Shown: one piece after another, positions 42,264 to 47,974 of the stretch | How the letters are laid out: every line of letters starts with the position of its first letter | Numbering within the stretch: position 1 is the first letter of the stretch | Assembly: GCF_013377755.1 (NCBI RefSeq) | Contig: NZ_JABXWR010000001.1 | Coordinates: 1,313,104 to 1,377,103, forward strand | DNA length: 64,000 nucleotides | Direction: 5' to 3' | DNA from: Methanofollis tationis | Lineage (GTDB): Archaea; Halobacteriota; Methanomicrobia; Methanomicrobiales; Methanofollaceae | Made by a program: the position numbers and the translations under genes | Notes under the pieces: generated by a model | Databases searched by the model: none | The model's input: only the letters and a program-made list of their open reading frames with translations | What the model was told of the DNA's origin: nothing

Positions 42264-43388
42264 TCAGGGCTTTTCCATCGCCGCCATGAACCGGTCCCTG
42301 ATCGCCTCAGGGGAGAGGGGGATGTTTGGCACGGCGGCGTTTCCCGGCCTGATGATCACATGGATGAAGTTCGGGCCGCCCCCTGCTGCGGCCGCCATCG
42401 CCTCTTCGATGCCCTGCTGGTCTGATACCTTCCATGTCCTCGTAAATCCCGCGGCCCGCGCCATGATTTCAAGGTCGACCCCGGCGGCGGCGCAGGTGGG
42501 CTGGTTGCCGGTGGACCCGAAGGCCCCGTTGTCCAGGCAGACGACCGTGAGGTTCTCAGGCGCTTCGGCGGCGATCACCGGGAGAACGGCGCTGCCGAGG
42601 AGACTCCCGTCGCCGTCCAGCACCACGACACCCCGTCCTGTCCCGAGGGCGATCCCGAGGCCGACGGCCGATGCCTGGGTGTAGGAGCCGAGCATATAGA
42701 AGGCGAGCGGTCTGTCGCCGGCCGCATAGAGTTCCTTGCTCGGGACGCCGATGTTGGCGACGACGGCGTCATCCTCAAGGTGCGGGACGATCGCCTGGAT
42801 TGCGTCGTACCTCGCTATCGAGGGTTCAGGGATCTCGCGCCGGTAGGTGAGGGCCGAGGTCCTGGCCCGGCCGGGCCCCTCCCTGCAGCCTGCGGTGCAC
42901 TTCTCCCCCTCCCAGACCCGCGGCGAGATCAGGGCGATATGCGGCCTCCCGTGTGCAAAGGCGTCCTCGATCACCTCTTCTATCCGCCCGAGGTCCGCGG
43001 CATCCATAATCTCGGTGTGCCTGATATCGAGGGCGTCGAGCAGGGCGGGCAGGCGGCTGTTGAACGGGACCTGCGCCGGGATCTGCTCCCTGTACACCCC
43101 CCGCCAGCTCGCAAGGACCGGCAGGGGAAGACCGAAGGTGACCGAAAGGGACATGACGGCGTTGAGCATGTTCCCGAGGCCTGAACTCTGGATGACGACG
43201 ACCGGCCTGAGCCCTGCCAGGACGGCCCCGGCGGCGATGCCGACCCCGTCCTCCTCGCGGTTCAGCCCGACGGTGCGGATCCGCCCGGGGAGGAGGAAGC
43301 AGAGGTCGCCGGCCCGGTCGCAGGGGAGGGTGAGGGCGAGGTCGATCCCGGACGCCTTCAGCAGGTCGCATACGCGCTCTTCATGCAT
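42264..43388 (-). CDS. comDE: Sulfopyruvate decarboxylase, fused alpha and beta subunits
   Basis: Decarboxylates sulfopyruvate to sulfoacetaldehyde in coenzyme M synthesis, using thiamine diphosphate. 374 residues in one chain: the ComD-like part (1 to about 165, starting MHEERVCDLLKASGIDLALTLPCD) and the ComE-like part (about 185 to end) with the TPP/Mg motif GVVVLDGDGSLLG then NGAFGSTGNQ. Some methanogens encode the two halves separately. The ATG overlaps the end of the cysteate synthase gene by eight bases. Last gene of the six-gene operon. Confidence 0.93.
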   Translation of the reverse strand: MHEERVCDLLKASGIDLALTLPCDRAGDLCFLLPGRIRTVGLNREEDGVGIAAGAVLAGLRPVVVIQSSGLGNMLNAVMSLSVTFGLPLPVLASWRGVYREQIPAQVPFNSRLPALLDALDIRHTEIMDAADLGRIEEVIEDAFAHGRPHIALISPRVWEGEKCTAGCREGPGRARTSALTYRREIPEPSIARYDAIQAIVPHLEDDAVVANIGVPSKELYAAGDRPLAFYMLGSYTQASAVGLGIALGTGRGVVVLDGDGSLLGSAVLPVIAAEAPENLTVVCLDNGAFGSTGNQPTCAAAGVDLEIMARAAGFTRTWKVSDQQGIEEAMAAAAGGGPNFIHVIIRPGNAAVPNIPLSPEAIRDRFMAAMEKP

Positions 43389-44652
43389 GGCGCTTCACCC
43401 ACGAGAGAACGTCGGTGACGATATCGTCTGCCCCTGTTCCTGCGGCGATGTGAAAAGCGGGCCTGACGACGACTTGATCGTGGTCCTCGGCCGCCCGTTC
43501 GTAGCCGCCGCCGGTGATGTTGAGCAGGACGGTCGAATGGGGATCGATCTCCCCGGTTTCCACCGCCTGAATAAGGGCGGCGACCGCAACGGCGGCGGCC
43601 GGATCGAGATCGATCTCCTCTTCCTCGACAAACCTCTTTTCCGCGTCGCGGGCATCCCGGTTCTCCACCGCATACATCGCCCCACCGGTCGCCGTGAGGG
43701 CGTCGAAGACGCCGCCGCCCACCCCGTACGGCGGGTTCCGGTTGGTCAGCACATCAGCGTACACGGCAGCGATCGCCGTTCGCGCATCCCGCATGTCGGT
43801 CTCAGGGATGATCTCCCGCCGTCCTGCCCGCCACGCCCTGACCATCGGGATGAAGGGGGCGTTCTGGGCGAGGTGGAGGCGGGGGAGGGCGCTGCCGTAT
43901 CTCCCGTCGCCGATCAGCCGCATCGCCGCTTCCCATGCGGCAATTCCGCCGGTCCCGCTCCCGACCGCCTGAACATAATGATCGGGGATCTGCCCGATCG
44001 TCACGGCGGCGTCGAGCATCACCGTGCCCATCCCGTCCCTGCGGGCGACGTTTTTCGCCCCGCCCTCGGGGACGAGGCCGGGATGCGTGCAGAGATCGTT
44101 TGCAGCCGCGATGGCGTCGGAATAGTCGCCGTCCGCCGTGACCAGGCAGACTTTCTCCGTCTCTCTCGTCGTCCAGAGCCTCTCCGCGGCGGCCGACGGC
44201 ACCACCACCACGACCGGGATCCCGGTGACGGCGGCGGTCTGGCAGAAGGCCCGCCCGGTGTTTCCGGCCGAGGCGATGACGAGCGTCCCCCTCCCGGTCT
44301 CCTTCATCCGCACCACCGTCGGCAGGGCCTCGAGCTCCTTGAACGAGCAGGTCGCTATCTGTGCGTTCCGCTCTGGCCAGTAGCCGGAAAACCCGATCCA
44401 GAGGTTCTCCATCCCGAGGTCCCGGGCAAGCCCCTCCGAGCGGTAGGTGACCGGTCCGGCCGGCGAGGCGATTGTCCCCTCGACCGGAAGCCAGTCTGCA
44501 AAGCGGAATATGCCGGGTTCGTTTCTGAGGTCGAGGGTCCGCCTCCGGTAGACGGTGCGGACCAGGGCATTGCACCCGGCCGGGCAGGACAGGGTGTAGT
44601 GGTCTTCCATTCTCTGCCCGCAGTCCGGGCAGAGCAGGGTATAGGGTCGCAT
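43381..44652 (-). CDS. Cysteate synthase (PLP, threonine-synthase-like)
   Basis: Makes L-cysteate from O-phosphoserine and sulfite, the entry to coenzyme M in Methanosarcinales and Methanomicrobiales, which lack the phosphosulfolactate route. 423 residues. A zinc-ribbon-like N-terminus (CPDCG, then CPAGC) precedes the PLP fold; FKELEAL gives the probable Schiff-base Lys105, SAGNTGRAF and GSGTGG bind phosphate. Distinguished from threonine synthase by the neighbours and by the GYWPERNAQIATCSF context. Start ATG 44652 after GGAGAGATGAT. Transamination of cysteate must be done by an enzyme encoded elsewhere. Confidence 0.9.
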   Translation of the reverse strand: MRPYTLLCPDCGQRMEDHYTLSCPAGCNALVRTVYRRRTLDLRNEPGIFRFADWLPVEGTIASPAGPVTYRSEGLARDLGMENLWIGFSGYWPERNAQIATCSFKELEALPTVVRMKETGRGTLVIASAGNTGRAFCQTAAVTGIPVVVVVPSAAAERLWTTRETEKVCLVTADGDYSDAIAAANDLCTHPGLVPEGGAKNVARRDGMGTVMLDAAVTIGQIPDHYVQAVGSGTGGIAAWEAAMRLIGDGRYGSALPRLHLAQNAPFIPMVRAWRAGRREIIPETDMRDARTAIAAVYADVLTNRNPPYGVGGGVFDALTATGGAMYAVENRDARDAEKRFVEEEEIDLDPAAAVAVAALIQAVETGEIDPHSTVLLNITGGGYERAAEDHDQVVVRPAFHIAAGTGADDIVTDVLSWVKRHA

Positions 44653-44664
44653 ATCATCTCTCCA

Positions 44665-45891
44665 TCATGGTATCGGGAATCTCTGGTCCAGGATCCTCTC
44701 CCTGAGGTCTGCACAGAGTGCCTCGGCGCGGTTCCGGTCTGACTGGCGGAGGGTGATCGGGACCCTCACACCGTCAACGGTGATCCCGCCGAGGTCGGCC
44801 TCTACGGCCCCGCCGGTGCAGGACGAGGCGCAGGCGCCGCAGGAGACGCACAGGCCGGGATCGATCCCCTTCCCGGTCACAAAGGCCCCGGTCGGGCAGA
44901 CCGCCCCGGCCGCACAGTGCTCGCAGAAGGCGCAGGCGGCGATATCGTAGGCTACGTGACGGTCGGTGCCCTGCCATATCTGGCCGTAATCGACAAGGGC
45001 GAAGGGCCGGCGGTCGTTGATGTCGGCCACCGGCAACGGGATCCCCTCGTCGAGCACGGAGAGCGCATCGAGGGCCGCCCGGTCGAGGACCGGGATCGCC
45101 GTTGCGATCGCCGTGATGCACTCGGGCCCTGCCGAGGTGACGAACCCGCCGCAGTAACGGGAATCCATCTCCCTGATCTCGGCGAAGGCCATGATGTTCG
45201 GGCGTTCCACCGACGAACGCGTGCCCTCTCCCATCACGAAGCCGGGCGCGCCGTTCACGAGCACGCGGCTCCCGGGCCTGATGAACCGCAGGGCGGGATC
45301 GTTCTCGATCGGGTTGATCTCCCCGCAACCGCTGACCGAGGCCTCCCTGCAGGGACCAAGGAGCCCCCCGGTCGAGAAGATTGTCCTGACAACGGAGTGC
45401 TCCCGGTTCACGTAGGCGGTATAGTTCTTGAAGGCGCTCCTCGTGGTAAACAGCCGTGCGGCATTGCACTCGTCGATGGTGACCGTTCTTGCGTACGCTG
45501 CTCCACCGGCGGCGACCTCGACCTCTATCGCCTTTCCCGCAGCAAGATCGGCGAAAAGATGCCCCCCGCCATAGCGGGGCCCGGCCTGCGCCGTCCCGTA
45601 GACGATCAGGTCGACAAGGCCGAGCCGTTCGTTCGGGCAGGGGCCGGGAAACGCCGGGACCCCGTTCAGGCGCACTGATTCAGCGCGGGAAAAGACTCCT
45701 GGTTCGGTCACCGGGAGGGAGAAGATCGCCGCGGTGCCCGACATCACCCCGCAGGTGCCGCAGGTGACCACGTCCACATCCCCGGGCGTCAACCGCTCCC
45801 CCTCCCGGATCCGTCTCTTGAGGTCAGCGGCGGTGAGCACGACGGCGTCTCCGCCCCTGATCCGCTCCCCGATCTCCCTGACTGTCTTCAT
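44665..45891 (-). CDS. DUF39 (COG1900) protein fused to a two-cluster ferredoxin domain
   Basis: 408 residues. The DUF39 domain fills 1 to about 300 with conserved Cys in TCGTCGVMSG (44, 47), at 85 and in DECNAARLF (142). The C-terminus has two ferredoxin motifs, CAFCEHCAAGAVCP and CVSCGACASSCT. In Methanosarcina a DUF39 protein with a ferredoxin partner was genetically linked to making homocysteine from aspartate semialdehyde, that is, aldehyde to thiol. In this operon the matching reaction would be sulfoacetaldehyde to coenzyme M; that is inference. Overlaps the Fe-S gene before it by four bases and lies 12 bases before cysteate synthase. Confidence 0.85.
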   Translation of the reverse strand: MKTVREIGERIRGGDAVVLTAADLKRRIREGERLTPGDVDVVTCGTCGVMSGTAAIFSLPVTEPGVFSRAESVRLNGVPAFPGPCPNERLGLVDLIVYGTAQAGPRYGGGHLFADLAAGKAIEVEVAAGGAAYARTVTIDECNAARLFTTRSAFKNYTAYVNREHSVVRTIFSTGGLLGPCREASVSGCGEINPIENDPALRFIRPGSRVLVNGAPGFVMGEGTRSSVERPNIMAFAEIREMDSRYCGGFVTSAGPECITAIATAIPVLDRAALDALSVLDEGIPLPVADINDRRPFALVDYGQIWQGTDRHVAYDIAACAFCEHCAAGAVCPTGAFVTGKGIDPGLCVSCGACASSCTGGAVEADLGGITVDGVRVPITLRQSDRNRAEALCADLRERILDQRFPIP

Positions 45892-46490
45892 AGTCTGATA
45901 TCCTCCACCCGGATCAAGAGCCCTTCTGGGCGCTCGATCACCATATTGGTAACGCCGGTGTGGGTGAGGGCCATCATGCAGAACCCCGGGAGAAAACGCT
46001 GGCGCATCCCGAAGGTCGGGGGGCGGCGCACGGTCCGGGCAATCCCTTCAAAACCGATCATATGGTAGGCCTGGACGTCGTGACAGGTGGCGCCCCGCGA
46101 GAAGGCCGGGCCGACGACATGGGTCGTCAGGACGCCGGTCACCGGGTTGGCGTCGATCACCCTCAGGACGTGCTGGACCGGGCACCCCGCCCCCATCGGG
46201 CGCCCGAGCACGATCTCGCCCTCTGCGATCCCCCATCTCTCGACGAGGTCGGGGCGGAACGGCAGGACGATCTTCCGCGCCGAGGGCTCGCCAGGGACGG
46301 GATCGAGGACGAAGTCATAGGCGTTGCCGAGGATATCGCGATGGTCCTGTGCCGCCTGTTCACCGCCCATCTCCTGATAGAACGGGCAGTCAGGATACGA
46401 CCGCTCTCCTGATGCGACCATCTCCAGAAACGCCCGGCAGGTCTTTGCACCGCAGAGCCCGCAGTTCTTGCCGGGGGGATGCCAGGCCAT
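45888..46490 (-). CDS. Small Fe-S protein of the coenzyme M operon
   Basis: 200 residues. The N-terminus NCGLCGAKTCRAF (Cys10, 13, 18) with Cys35 in YPDCPF is the four-cysteine 4Fe-4S module known from corrinoid iron-sulfur proteins and RnfB-like proteins. The rest (for example IVLGRPMGAGCPVQHVL) is conserved-looking but I cannot assign it. No signal or membrane segment, so cytosolic electron transfer or sulfur handling is likely. It starts directly after the GTPase stop and overlaps the DUF39 gene by four bases. Confidence 0.78.
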   Translation of the reverse strand: MAWHPPGKNCGLCGAKTCRAFLEMVASGERSYPDCPFYQEMGGEQAAQDHRDILGNAYDFVLDPVPGEPSARKIVLPFRPDLVERWGIAEGEIVLGRPMGAGCPVQHVLRVIDANPVTGVLTTHVVGPAFSRGATCHDVQAYHMIGFEGIARTVRRPPTFGMRQRFLPGFCMMALTHTGVTNMVIERPEGLLIRVEDIRL

Positions 46491-47198
46491 TCACTCCCCC
46501 CTGAAGATCCAGTCGGCGCCGTCGAGTTTCCTGACGACGCCGAAGTGGCGCTGCCACCCGATCTCCTTCTTCCCGACGCAGATCGTGCAGACTCCAAGAG
46601 GCGGGACGCCGCGGACCTCGATCGTATCTTCGTCCTCGATATCCCCGGTCTCCTCGATCCGGCGAATGAGATAGCGCATGCCGGTGCCCTGGAGGGCGTT
46701 TGTCTCGACGATCTCGATCCCCGGCGCCACTTCAAGGATACGCTCGCGGAAGACCTCCTTTTCGGCCTGCGAGACCAGGTCGATCCTGGTGACCACCGCC
46801 ACGTCGGCGAGGGCGATCATCGGGCCCATCTTGAGGGGGGCGTGCGTGCCCGAGACCGCACTGATGACGACGATTCCGAGGGACTGCGTGAGGTAGGGCG
46901 AGCAGCGGAGGCAGAGCCCGGCCGACTCGACGATCAGGATATCGGCGCCCTCGCCGGCGGCCCAGGCGATCGCGTCCCGCATCACCATGATGCCTGCATG
47001 GTCGGGGCAGAGGTCGCCTGAATAGACCTTCCGCGCCGGGATGCCGAACTCCTTCCTGAGTTCCTCGTCCTCGAAGGCGCGCACGACATCGATCTTCAGG
47101 TAGGCGATCGCCGCCGTCGCCTGAAGGTTGCGGACGATCTGCCTGACGACCGCCGTCTTGCCCGCCGAGGGGGGACCGGCGATGACGATCAGCTTCAT
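46491..47198 (-). CDS. HypB/CobW-like P-loop GTPase of the coenzyme M operon
   Basis: 235 residues from ATG 47198, which overlaps the ABC gene stop (ATGA); the frame is open 56 codons further but only as antiphase of that gene. Walker A is IAGPPSAGKTAVV (GPPSAGKT, residues 8-15), Walker B-like LIVESAGLCLRC, base-specificity region VVTRIDLVSQAEK. Cys pairs occur in LCLRC and in a C-terminal VCTICVGKKE. Relatives insert metals or act as maturation factors. Here it may load metal or an Fe-S cluster onto an operon partner; untested. Confidence 0.8.
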   Translation of the reverse strand: MKLIVIAGPPSAGKTAVVRQIVRNLQATAAIAYLKIDVVRAFEDEELRKEFGIPARKVYSGDLCPDHAGIMVMRDAIAWAAGEGADILIVESAGLCLRCSPYLTQSLGIVVISAVSGTHAPLKMGPMIALADVAVVTRIDLVSQAEKEVFRERILEVAPGIEIVETNALQGTGMRYLIRRIEETGDIEDEDTIEVRGVPPLGVCTICVGKKEIGWQRHFGVVRKLDGADWIFRGE

Positions 47199-47974
47199 GA
47201 GGCGAATGCGGCTTCGGTGATCGACTCGCCGGCGCGGATCCGCTCTCTCAGGGCAGAGAGGATCCCGTCCATTTTTCTGATGGCGGCAAGGGCCTTTTCC
47301 TCCTCTCCGTCGCGCTCGATGATCTTTGCCACGGTGCCGTTGCGCATCACGATCCGCCGGTCGCACATCAGGGAGACGAGAGGGTCGTGCGTGACGAAGA
47401 TGACCGCTTTTCCGTATGCCCTGAGCGTCTCGATCACCCGGTGCTTGAAGATACCGGCGTTCTCGACCTCGTCCAGGATGATGATCGGGGTGTTGCCGAT
47501 CGTGATGGCGTCGGCAACCATCAGCGAACGCGTCTGGCCGCCCGAGAGCGCGGTCATCCGTGCACCGGCGGTGATCTCTTCGCCGGTGAACTCGTTTGCG
47601 AGGGCGATCGTCTCGGCGACGATCCCCTCCCGCTCAATCCGTCTCGACCGCACATGCATCGAGAGGAACTCCTGCACCGAGAGATCCGCGAGGCACTTCG
47701 TATTCTGGGTGATCAGGGCGACCGGTTTTTTTGATGGATCTCGCACAAGGTCCTCGGGTGGCATCCCCCCGTTGACCAGCACGGTCCTGCCGGTGGCCGT
47801 GTCCTCCCTGGCAAAGATCTCGATGTCGCCGATAAGAGCGCTCTTGCCTGATCCGGTGGGGCCGACGATGGAGAGCGTTTCACCGGGTCTGATCACGATC
47901 CGATCGAAGGTCTCCTGCATGCCGTTCTTGTCCCTCCCCGGGAGAACGGTGATCTCGGTGATCTCCGGGTACAT
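47195..47974 (-). CDS. Soluble ABC-type ATPase of the coenzyme M operon
   Basis: 259 residues, one ABC domain: Walker A GPTGSGKS (38-45), signature ALSGGQTRSLMVADA, Walker B IIILDEVENAG, His switch VTHDP. The Walker B glutamate is present, so hydrolysis is likely. No permease or binding protein is encoded nearby, which argues for a soluble role like SufC or the methyl-reductase activation ATPase AtwA rather than transport. First gene of the operon; divergent from the ADP-ribosylglycohydrolase gene across about 180 bases. Confidence 0.82.
   Translation of the reverse strand: MYPEITEITVLPGRDKNGMQETFDRIVIRPGETLSIVGPTGSGKSALIGDIEIFAREDTATGRTVLVNGGMPPEDLVRDPSKKPVALITQNTKCLADLSVQEFLSMHVRSRRIEREGIVAETIALANEFTGEEITAGARMTALSGGQTRSLMVADAITIGNTPIIILDEVENAGIFKHRVIETLRAYGKAVIFVTHDPLVSLMCDRRIVMRNGTVAKIIERDGEEEKALAAIRKMDGILSALRERIRAGESITEAAFAS

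Follow-up and report, generated by a model that had tools for sequence, protein, structure and literature searches.

The window, a 64,000-nucleotide stretch of the Methanofollis tationis genome, carries a six-gene operon (42264-47974) in which genes for an ATP-binding cassette (ABC) ATPase, a HypB/UreG-type GTPase and a COG2000-type iron-sulfur (Fe-S) protein precede the genes for coenzyme M biosynthesis. These three genes, hereafter the trio, form a conserved module that occurs independently of the coenzyme M synthase ComF and is linked, in archaea and in bacteria, to enzymes that consume sulfite. The trio is a real, uncharacterised module, and the step at which it works is likely to differ from the one first proposed for it, the thiolation of sulfoacetaldehyde. 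Our tentative explanation, to which we give somewhat less than an even chance, is that the trio acts where sulfur enters the sulfonate: it would make or deliver a sulfur nucleophile, probably sulfite, for cysteate synthase or the sulfonate synthase ComA.

The six open reading frames are all encoded on the minus strand; their junctions are -4, 0, -4, +12 and -8 bases, exactly as given in a preliminary description of this DNA. The first gene (47195..47974; PF00005, 51.5 bits) encodes a soluble, single-domain ABC-type ATPase of 259 amino acids. It is followed by the 235-residue GTPase (46491..47198; PF02492, 49.8 bits), which starts at position 47198 (MKLIVIAG) and has a C-terminal CxxC...H extension of its own, and by the 200-residue COG2000 protein (45888..46490; PF04060, 43.6 bits). 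The fourth gene (44665..45891) encodes a DUF39-ferredoxin protein of 408 residues that scores 516.8 bits against TIGR03287, methanogenesis marker 16 (MMP16; cut-off 363.95 bits), and also matches Pfam HcyBio. It stands directly upstream of the sulfoacetaldehyde-forming genes, whose previously proposed identities are confirmed by scores above every cut-off. These genes encode a 423-residue cysteate synthase (43381..44652; TIGR03844, 655 versus 324.9 bits) and a fused 374-residue sulfopyruvate decarboxylase, ComDE (42264..43388; TIGR03845, 191.8 versus 147.95 bits; TIGR03846, 243.6 versus 221.5 bits). Cysteate synthase forms cysteate from O-phosphoserine and sulfite. Dozens of Methanomicrobiales share this gene order, so the arrangement is not due to chance. 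The operon is a type-2 coenzyme M biosynthesis operon comprising cysteate synthase, ComDE and MMP16/ComF, plus the trio. A variant is seen in two Methanogenium genomes (G031 and G032; loci L201 and L202), where the trio and cysteate synthase share one operon and MMP16 lies elsewhere, beside a second ComDE copy.

The thiolation half of this picture is already known, and the coenzyme M operon as such is ordinary. The preliminary description had assigned sulfoacetaldehyde thiolation to the DUF39-ferredoxin protein; this was right, yet already in print. MMP16, whose function we take from that work, serves Methanosarcina acetivorans as its primary coenzyme M synthase (ComF), and loss of MMP16 leads to coenzyme M starvation (Chadwick et al. 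2025, PMC12068725). Escherichia coli carrying the Methanocaldococcus jannaschii MMP16 homologue on a plasmid turns sulfoacetaldehyde into coenzyme M (PMC12068725). The cluster described there contains the same genes as ours: MMP16 is often accompanied by genes for an ATPase, a GTPase that binds Ni and a COG2000 Fe-S protein, and the role of these three was left unexplained (PMC12068725, Fig. 2). Within the open-access literature, this is the only paper that names COG2000 in this sense. Whereas its text does not place the helper genes in bacteria or with ComA, we find the trio in the absence of ComF and alongside other sulfonate synthases.

Scanning genome contigs with a COG2000 alignment recovered many Clostridia besides methanogens. 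The ATPase, GTPase and COG2000 genes occur together in 35-37 of 37 bacterial loci, nearly always in this order, and no neighbour family other than the trio itself recurs in more than nine of the 37. The trio is intact in Clostridia, Heliobacterium and two further bacterial lineages, with no MMP16, cysteate synthase or ComDE gene adjoining it. In the topology of a concatenated tree, the bacterial trios form one clade, apart from that of the Methanomicrobiales, and the Methanosarcinaceae-like trios form a further, divergent clade. At two loci, a conserved NAD-epimerase-like gene is found between the COG2000 and ATPase genes (L057:9963-10955 and L058:1572-2564); its identity as a UDP-sulfoquinovose synthase is not supported, since it scores 24 bits where the cut-off is 575.

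The trio also occurs where no candidate client of the ComF family exists. Among 45 trio-bearing genomes, a COG1900 protein is absent in Heliobacterium (G066 and G075), in the UBP3 bacterium G044 and in several metagenome-assembled genomes. The COG1900 proteins of the remaining trio-bearing Clostridia are solely of the L-ASST type, with PF01837 scores of ~440-537 bits compared to ~305-328 bits for MMP16. A closed methanogen genome (G025; L214) has the trio, cysteate synthase and ComDE, and MMP16 was not found in it, so the last step of coenzyme M synthesis there must use L-ASST or something else.

The trio is instead linked to enzymes that put sulfur into sulfonates. Of the trio genomes, 51 of 53 in archaea and 32 of 36 in bacteria encode cysteate synthase or ComA, both of which consume sulfite. 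ComA alone is found in 31 of the 36 trio-bearing bacteria and lies within 10 kb of the trio at nine of the 37 bacterial loci. Some Clostridia have operons of the order ComA-ComB-ATPase-GTPase-COG2000 (L052 and L059) or ComA followed by the trio (L085, L094 and L069); an apparent ComA-ATPase gene fusion at L069 (G050) is an artefact produced by a masked stretch of N. Within the Heliobacterium class, COG2000 occurs in seven of nine ComA-positive and none of 74 ComA-negative genomes (Fisher p ~9e-9, ignoring relatedness).

The link to ComDE is narrower. A check of trio-comDE co-occurrence, suggested in the preliminary description, shows strict linkage in the Methanomicrobiales: among 31 genomes, 21 have COG2000 together with ComDE, nine have neither, and one has a decayed operon, so that trio and pathway were lost together where coenzyme M is no longer made. 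The decayed operon (G014; L199:6879-8264) has an ATPase gene interrupted by a stop, and the start of the GTPase gene is joined to the end of ComDE, the genes between having been deleted. The linkage did not extend to bacteria, where ComDE is absent in 17 of 18 trio bacteria examined. The exception is UBP3 G044 (L058 and L198), in which the trio is followed by cysteate synthase, ComD and ComE, and by a SafD-like gene for an aldehyde dehydrogenase resembling sulfoacetaldehyde dehydrogenase, in one pseudaminate/nonulosonate gene cluster; its two contigs are joined by an exact 20-base end overlap inside a NeuB-like gene. This pathway probably ends in sulfoacetate, yet the trio is kept. The cluster may also point to a sulfoacetate-decorated bacterial sugar. 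Methanosarcinaceae-like genomes place the trio within the pathway operon (cysteate synthase-ATPase-GTPase-COG2000-ComD-ComE), to which MMP16 does not belong. That operons joining the trio to cysteate synthase or ComA recur in such distant lineages suggests a direct tie.

The three proteins have conserved features. The Walker A motif, LSGGQ signature, catalytic Glu169 and H-loop of the ATPase are invariant in ~95 homologues from all clades. The preliminary description set this ATPase apart from transport because it has no membrane partner; this holds at the locus itself, and no permease recurs beside the gene in the 37 bacterial loci, where only the trio does, although no genome-wide search for a partner was made. 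SufC of the SUF system and PhnK of C-P lyase are likewise soluble ABC ATPases without a permease, a likeness by type and not by family comparison; unlike these, the ATPase has no SufB/D or Phn proteins in the operon locus. The GTPase shares the fold of the nickel-insertion GTPases HypB and UreG, its AlphaFold model being best matched by HypB (2hf8, E 2e-11) and UreG (4hi0, E 6e-11). Like them it is a P-loop GTPase with invariant Cys and His residues: Cys63, His66, Cys95, Cys98, Cys203, Cys206 and His217 are conserved in 99 of 99 homologues, a set that would be compatible with nickel or zinc binding. In contrast, it falls below the curated cut-offs of both families (65.4 versus 121.2 bits for HypB, TIGR00073), carries the additional CxxC...H motif, and has no adjoining hydrogenase or urease, being always accompanied by the ABC ATPase and COG2000.

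COG2000 has an N-terminal 4Fe-4S domain resembling that of the corrinoid/iron-sulfur protein large subunit, AcsC/CdhE (PF04060; PDB 4djd and 2h9a by sequence), with four cluster cysteines (Cys10, Cys13, Cys18 and Cys35) that are invariant across all clades. The likeness ends there: COG2000 has no corrinoid-binding or TIM-barrel domain, and its C-terminal domain is unrelated and beta-rich, with a second set of residues (Cys103, His107, Cys171 and His177) that is equally invariant. The AlphaFold model is confident (predicted local distance difference test score 90). Foldseek returned no significant match for the C-terminal domain; the best hit (E 0.07) was to the Fe-S domain, and an FNR-like barrel had a probability of 0.33.

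We favor supply of a sulfur nucleophile as the role of the trio because sulfite is what cysteate synthase and ComA most simply have in common. COG2000 would be a metalloprotein that uses its 4Fe-4S cluster and a second metal site, formed by Cys103, His107, Cys171 and His177, for sulfur redox chemistry. The GTPase may load or gate the metal of COG2000, and the ABC ATPase could drive a conformational or activation cycle. The yitBA-yisZ genes of Bacillus subtilis, which we take to be sulfate-activation and 3'-phosphoadenosine 5'-phosphosulfate (PAPS)-reductase genes not homologous to the trio, provide a parallel. They lie beside yitCD (ComBA), and both sets have been inferred to serve phosphosulfolactate synthesis (PMC517825), so that there too the sulfonate synthase genes adjoin a set assigned to that synthesis. 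The literature treats the origin of the sulfite for coenzyme M as unsettled: Dsr-like proteins oxidizing sulfide have been considered, but some methanogens lack them (PMC3448663). Pelotomaculum has been described as probably unable to reduce sulfate completely, and Desulfotomaculum as having dsrAB (PMC4161757); as a lead, the Pelotomaculum limit would fit a need for another sulfite source. A bolder version, which we consider unlikely, is that the trio is a new anaerobic machine that forms sulfite or delivers a sulfur oxyanion, in which COG2000 would be a metalloenzyme of a new kind, attended by a dedicated GTPase and ABC ATPase. Such a machine would be common to methanogens, Clostridia and a UBP3 bacterium and would be the origin of sulfite for coenzyme M in sulfide-grown methanogens.

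Several observations weigh against sulfite supply. Across the 217 genomes of the archaeal survey, COG2000 follows MMP16 as closely as it follows cysteate synthase/ComA, and the case therefore rests on the bacteria. Among these, two genomes (G154 and G155) have ComA and no trio; inspection by eye revealed no PAPS reductase beside ComA in either. ComA is present in 93 of 113 genomes of the Pelotomaculum class, where its association with COG2000 is not significant (15/17 versus 78/96, p = 0.38), and the Fisher tests ignore kinship among genomes. The complete genome G315 contains a trio, yet searches of it for cysteate synthase, ComA and MMP16 found none. In two genomes of group f10 the trio adjoins MMP16 only, and COG2000 was not detected in Methanosarcina-like genomes (g66) and others (g29) that carry both cysteate synthase and MMP16. 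Second copies and paralogs weigh both ways. Trios lie beside large surface-protein-like genes in G315 (L204:6145-8546) and, as a second copy, in G329 (L206:7349-9699). Another second copy, in G334 (L205:331-7753), is divergent from a CysE-CysK-ThiS-ThiF-NMT1-like cluster. Divergent paralogs of the order ATPase-GTPase-NifS cysteine desulfurase-COG2000 are found in Heliobacterium-type genomes at L196:2291-10139 and L197:7543-11059 and in G164 at L207:7286-10628; the one at L196 is followed by O-acetylhomoserine sulfhydrylase and nitrogenase-like D/K genes, and divergent paralogs also occur near ThiF/NifU. Surface-protein, NifS and CysE-CysK neighbors mean that the trio has wider uses, and the enzymes beside the paralogs use sulfide, not sulfite. 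The NifS-containing paralogs and the CysE-CysK-ThiS-ThiF copy are nevertheless again concerned with sulfur assimilation, which counts in favor of sulfur-nucleophile supply.

Ranked next after sulfur-nucleophile supply, and less probable, is a general role in which the GTPase, ABC ATPase and Fe-S scaffold mature or reactivate a metal center in a client encoded elsewhere, the link to sulfonates being indirect. The HypB/UreG fold and seven invariant Cys/His residues of the GTPase, the resemblance of the Fe-S domain to the corrinoid/iron-sulfur protein, and the paralog adjoining NifS and nitrogenase-like genes are all consistent with this, as are the many bacterial loci that share no neighbor beyond the trio. 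However, no single client family was found, and the operon linkage to cysteate synthase or ComA that recurs across distant lineages speaks for a more direct tie.

Two further explanations are improbable. The trio might be a general relay for sulfide or persulfide sulfur instead of sulfite, with cysteine as the donor in the NifS clade and free sulfide in the methanogen operon; the NifS-containing operons of Heliobacterium and G164 and the trio beside CysE-CysK-ThiS-ThiF would suit such a relay, but the established enzymology of cysteate synthase and ComA requires sulfite, not sulfide, and free sulfide has no need of a relay. We assign similarly low probability to the model of the preliminary description, in which the ATPase, GTPase and Fe-S protein mature or energize the DUF39-ferredoxin coenzyme M synthase. 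Its support comes from the shared operon in Methanomicrobiales, with COG2000 and MMP16 overlapping at the -4 junction, from the co-occurrence of the two in the archaeal survey (49/53 versus 49/164), and from two loci (L212 and L213) where the trio adjoins MMP16 without cysteate synthase. The model does not account for the trios of Heliobacterium and UBP3, which exist without any COG1900 protein and rule out ComF activation as the sole role, for the closed genome G025 or the Methanosarcina-like genomes, in which trio and MMP16 occur apart, or for coenzyme M formation by a plasmid-borne MMP16 homologue in E. coli. Occurrence without ComF/COG1900 and with sulfite-consuming enzymes thus argues against the trio powering thiolation.

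All biological methane formation depends on coenzyme M, whose sulfonate sulfur derives from sulfite, a poison to methanogens of unsettled intracellular origin (PMC3448663). If the trio supplies this sulfite, three genes would gain a job and a gap in an essential pathway would close; the same module would also account for sulfonate synthesis in anaerobes that are not methanogens. Should the trio prove not to supply sulfite, the data still turn attention away from the thiolation step.

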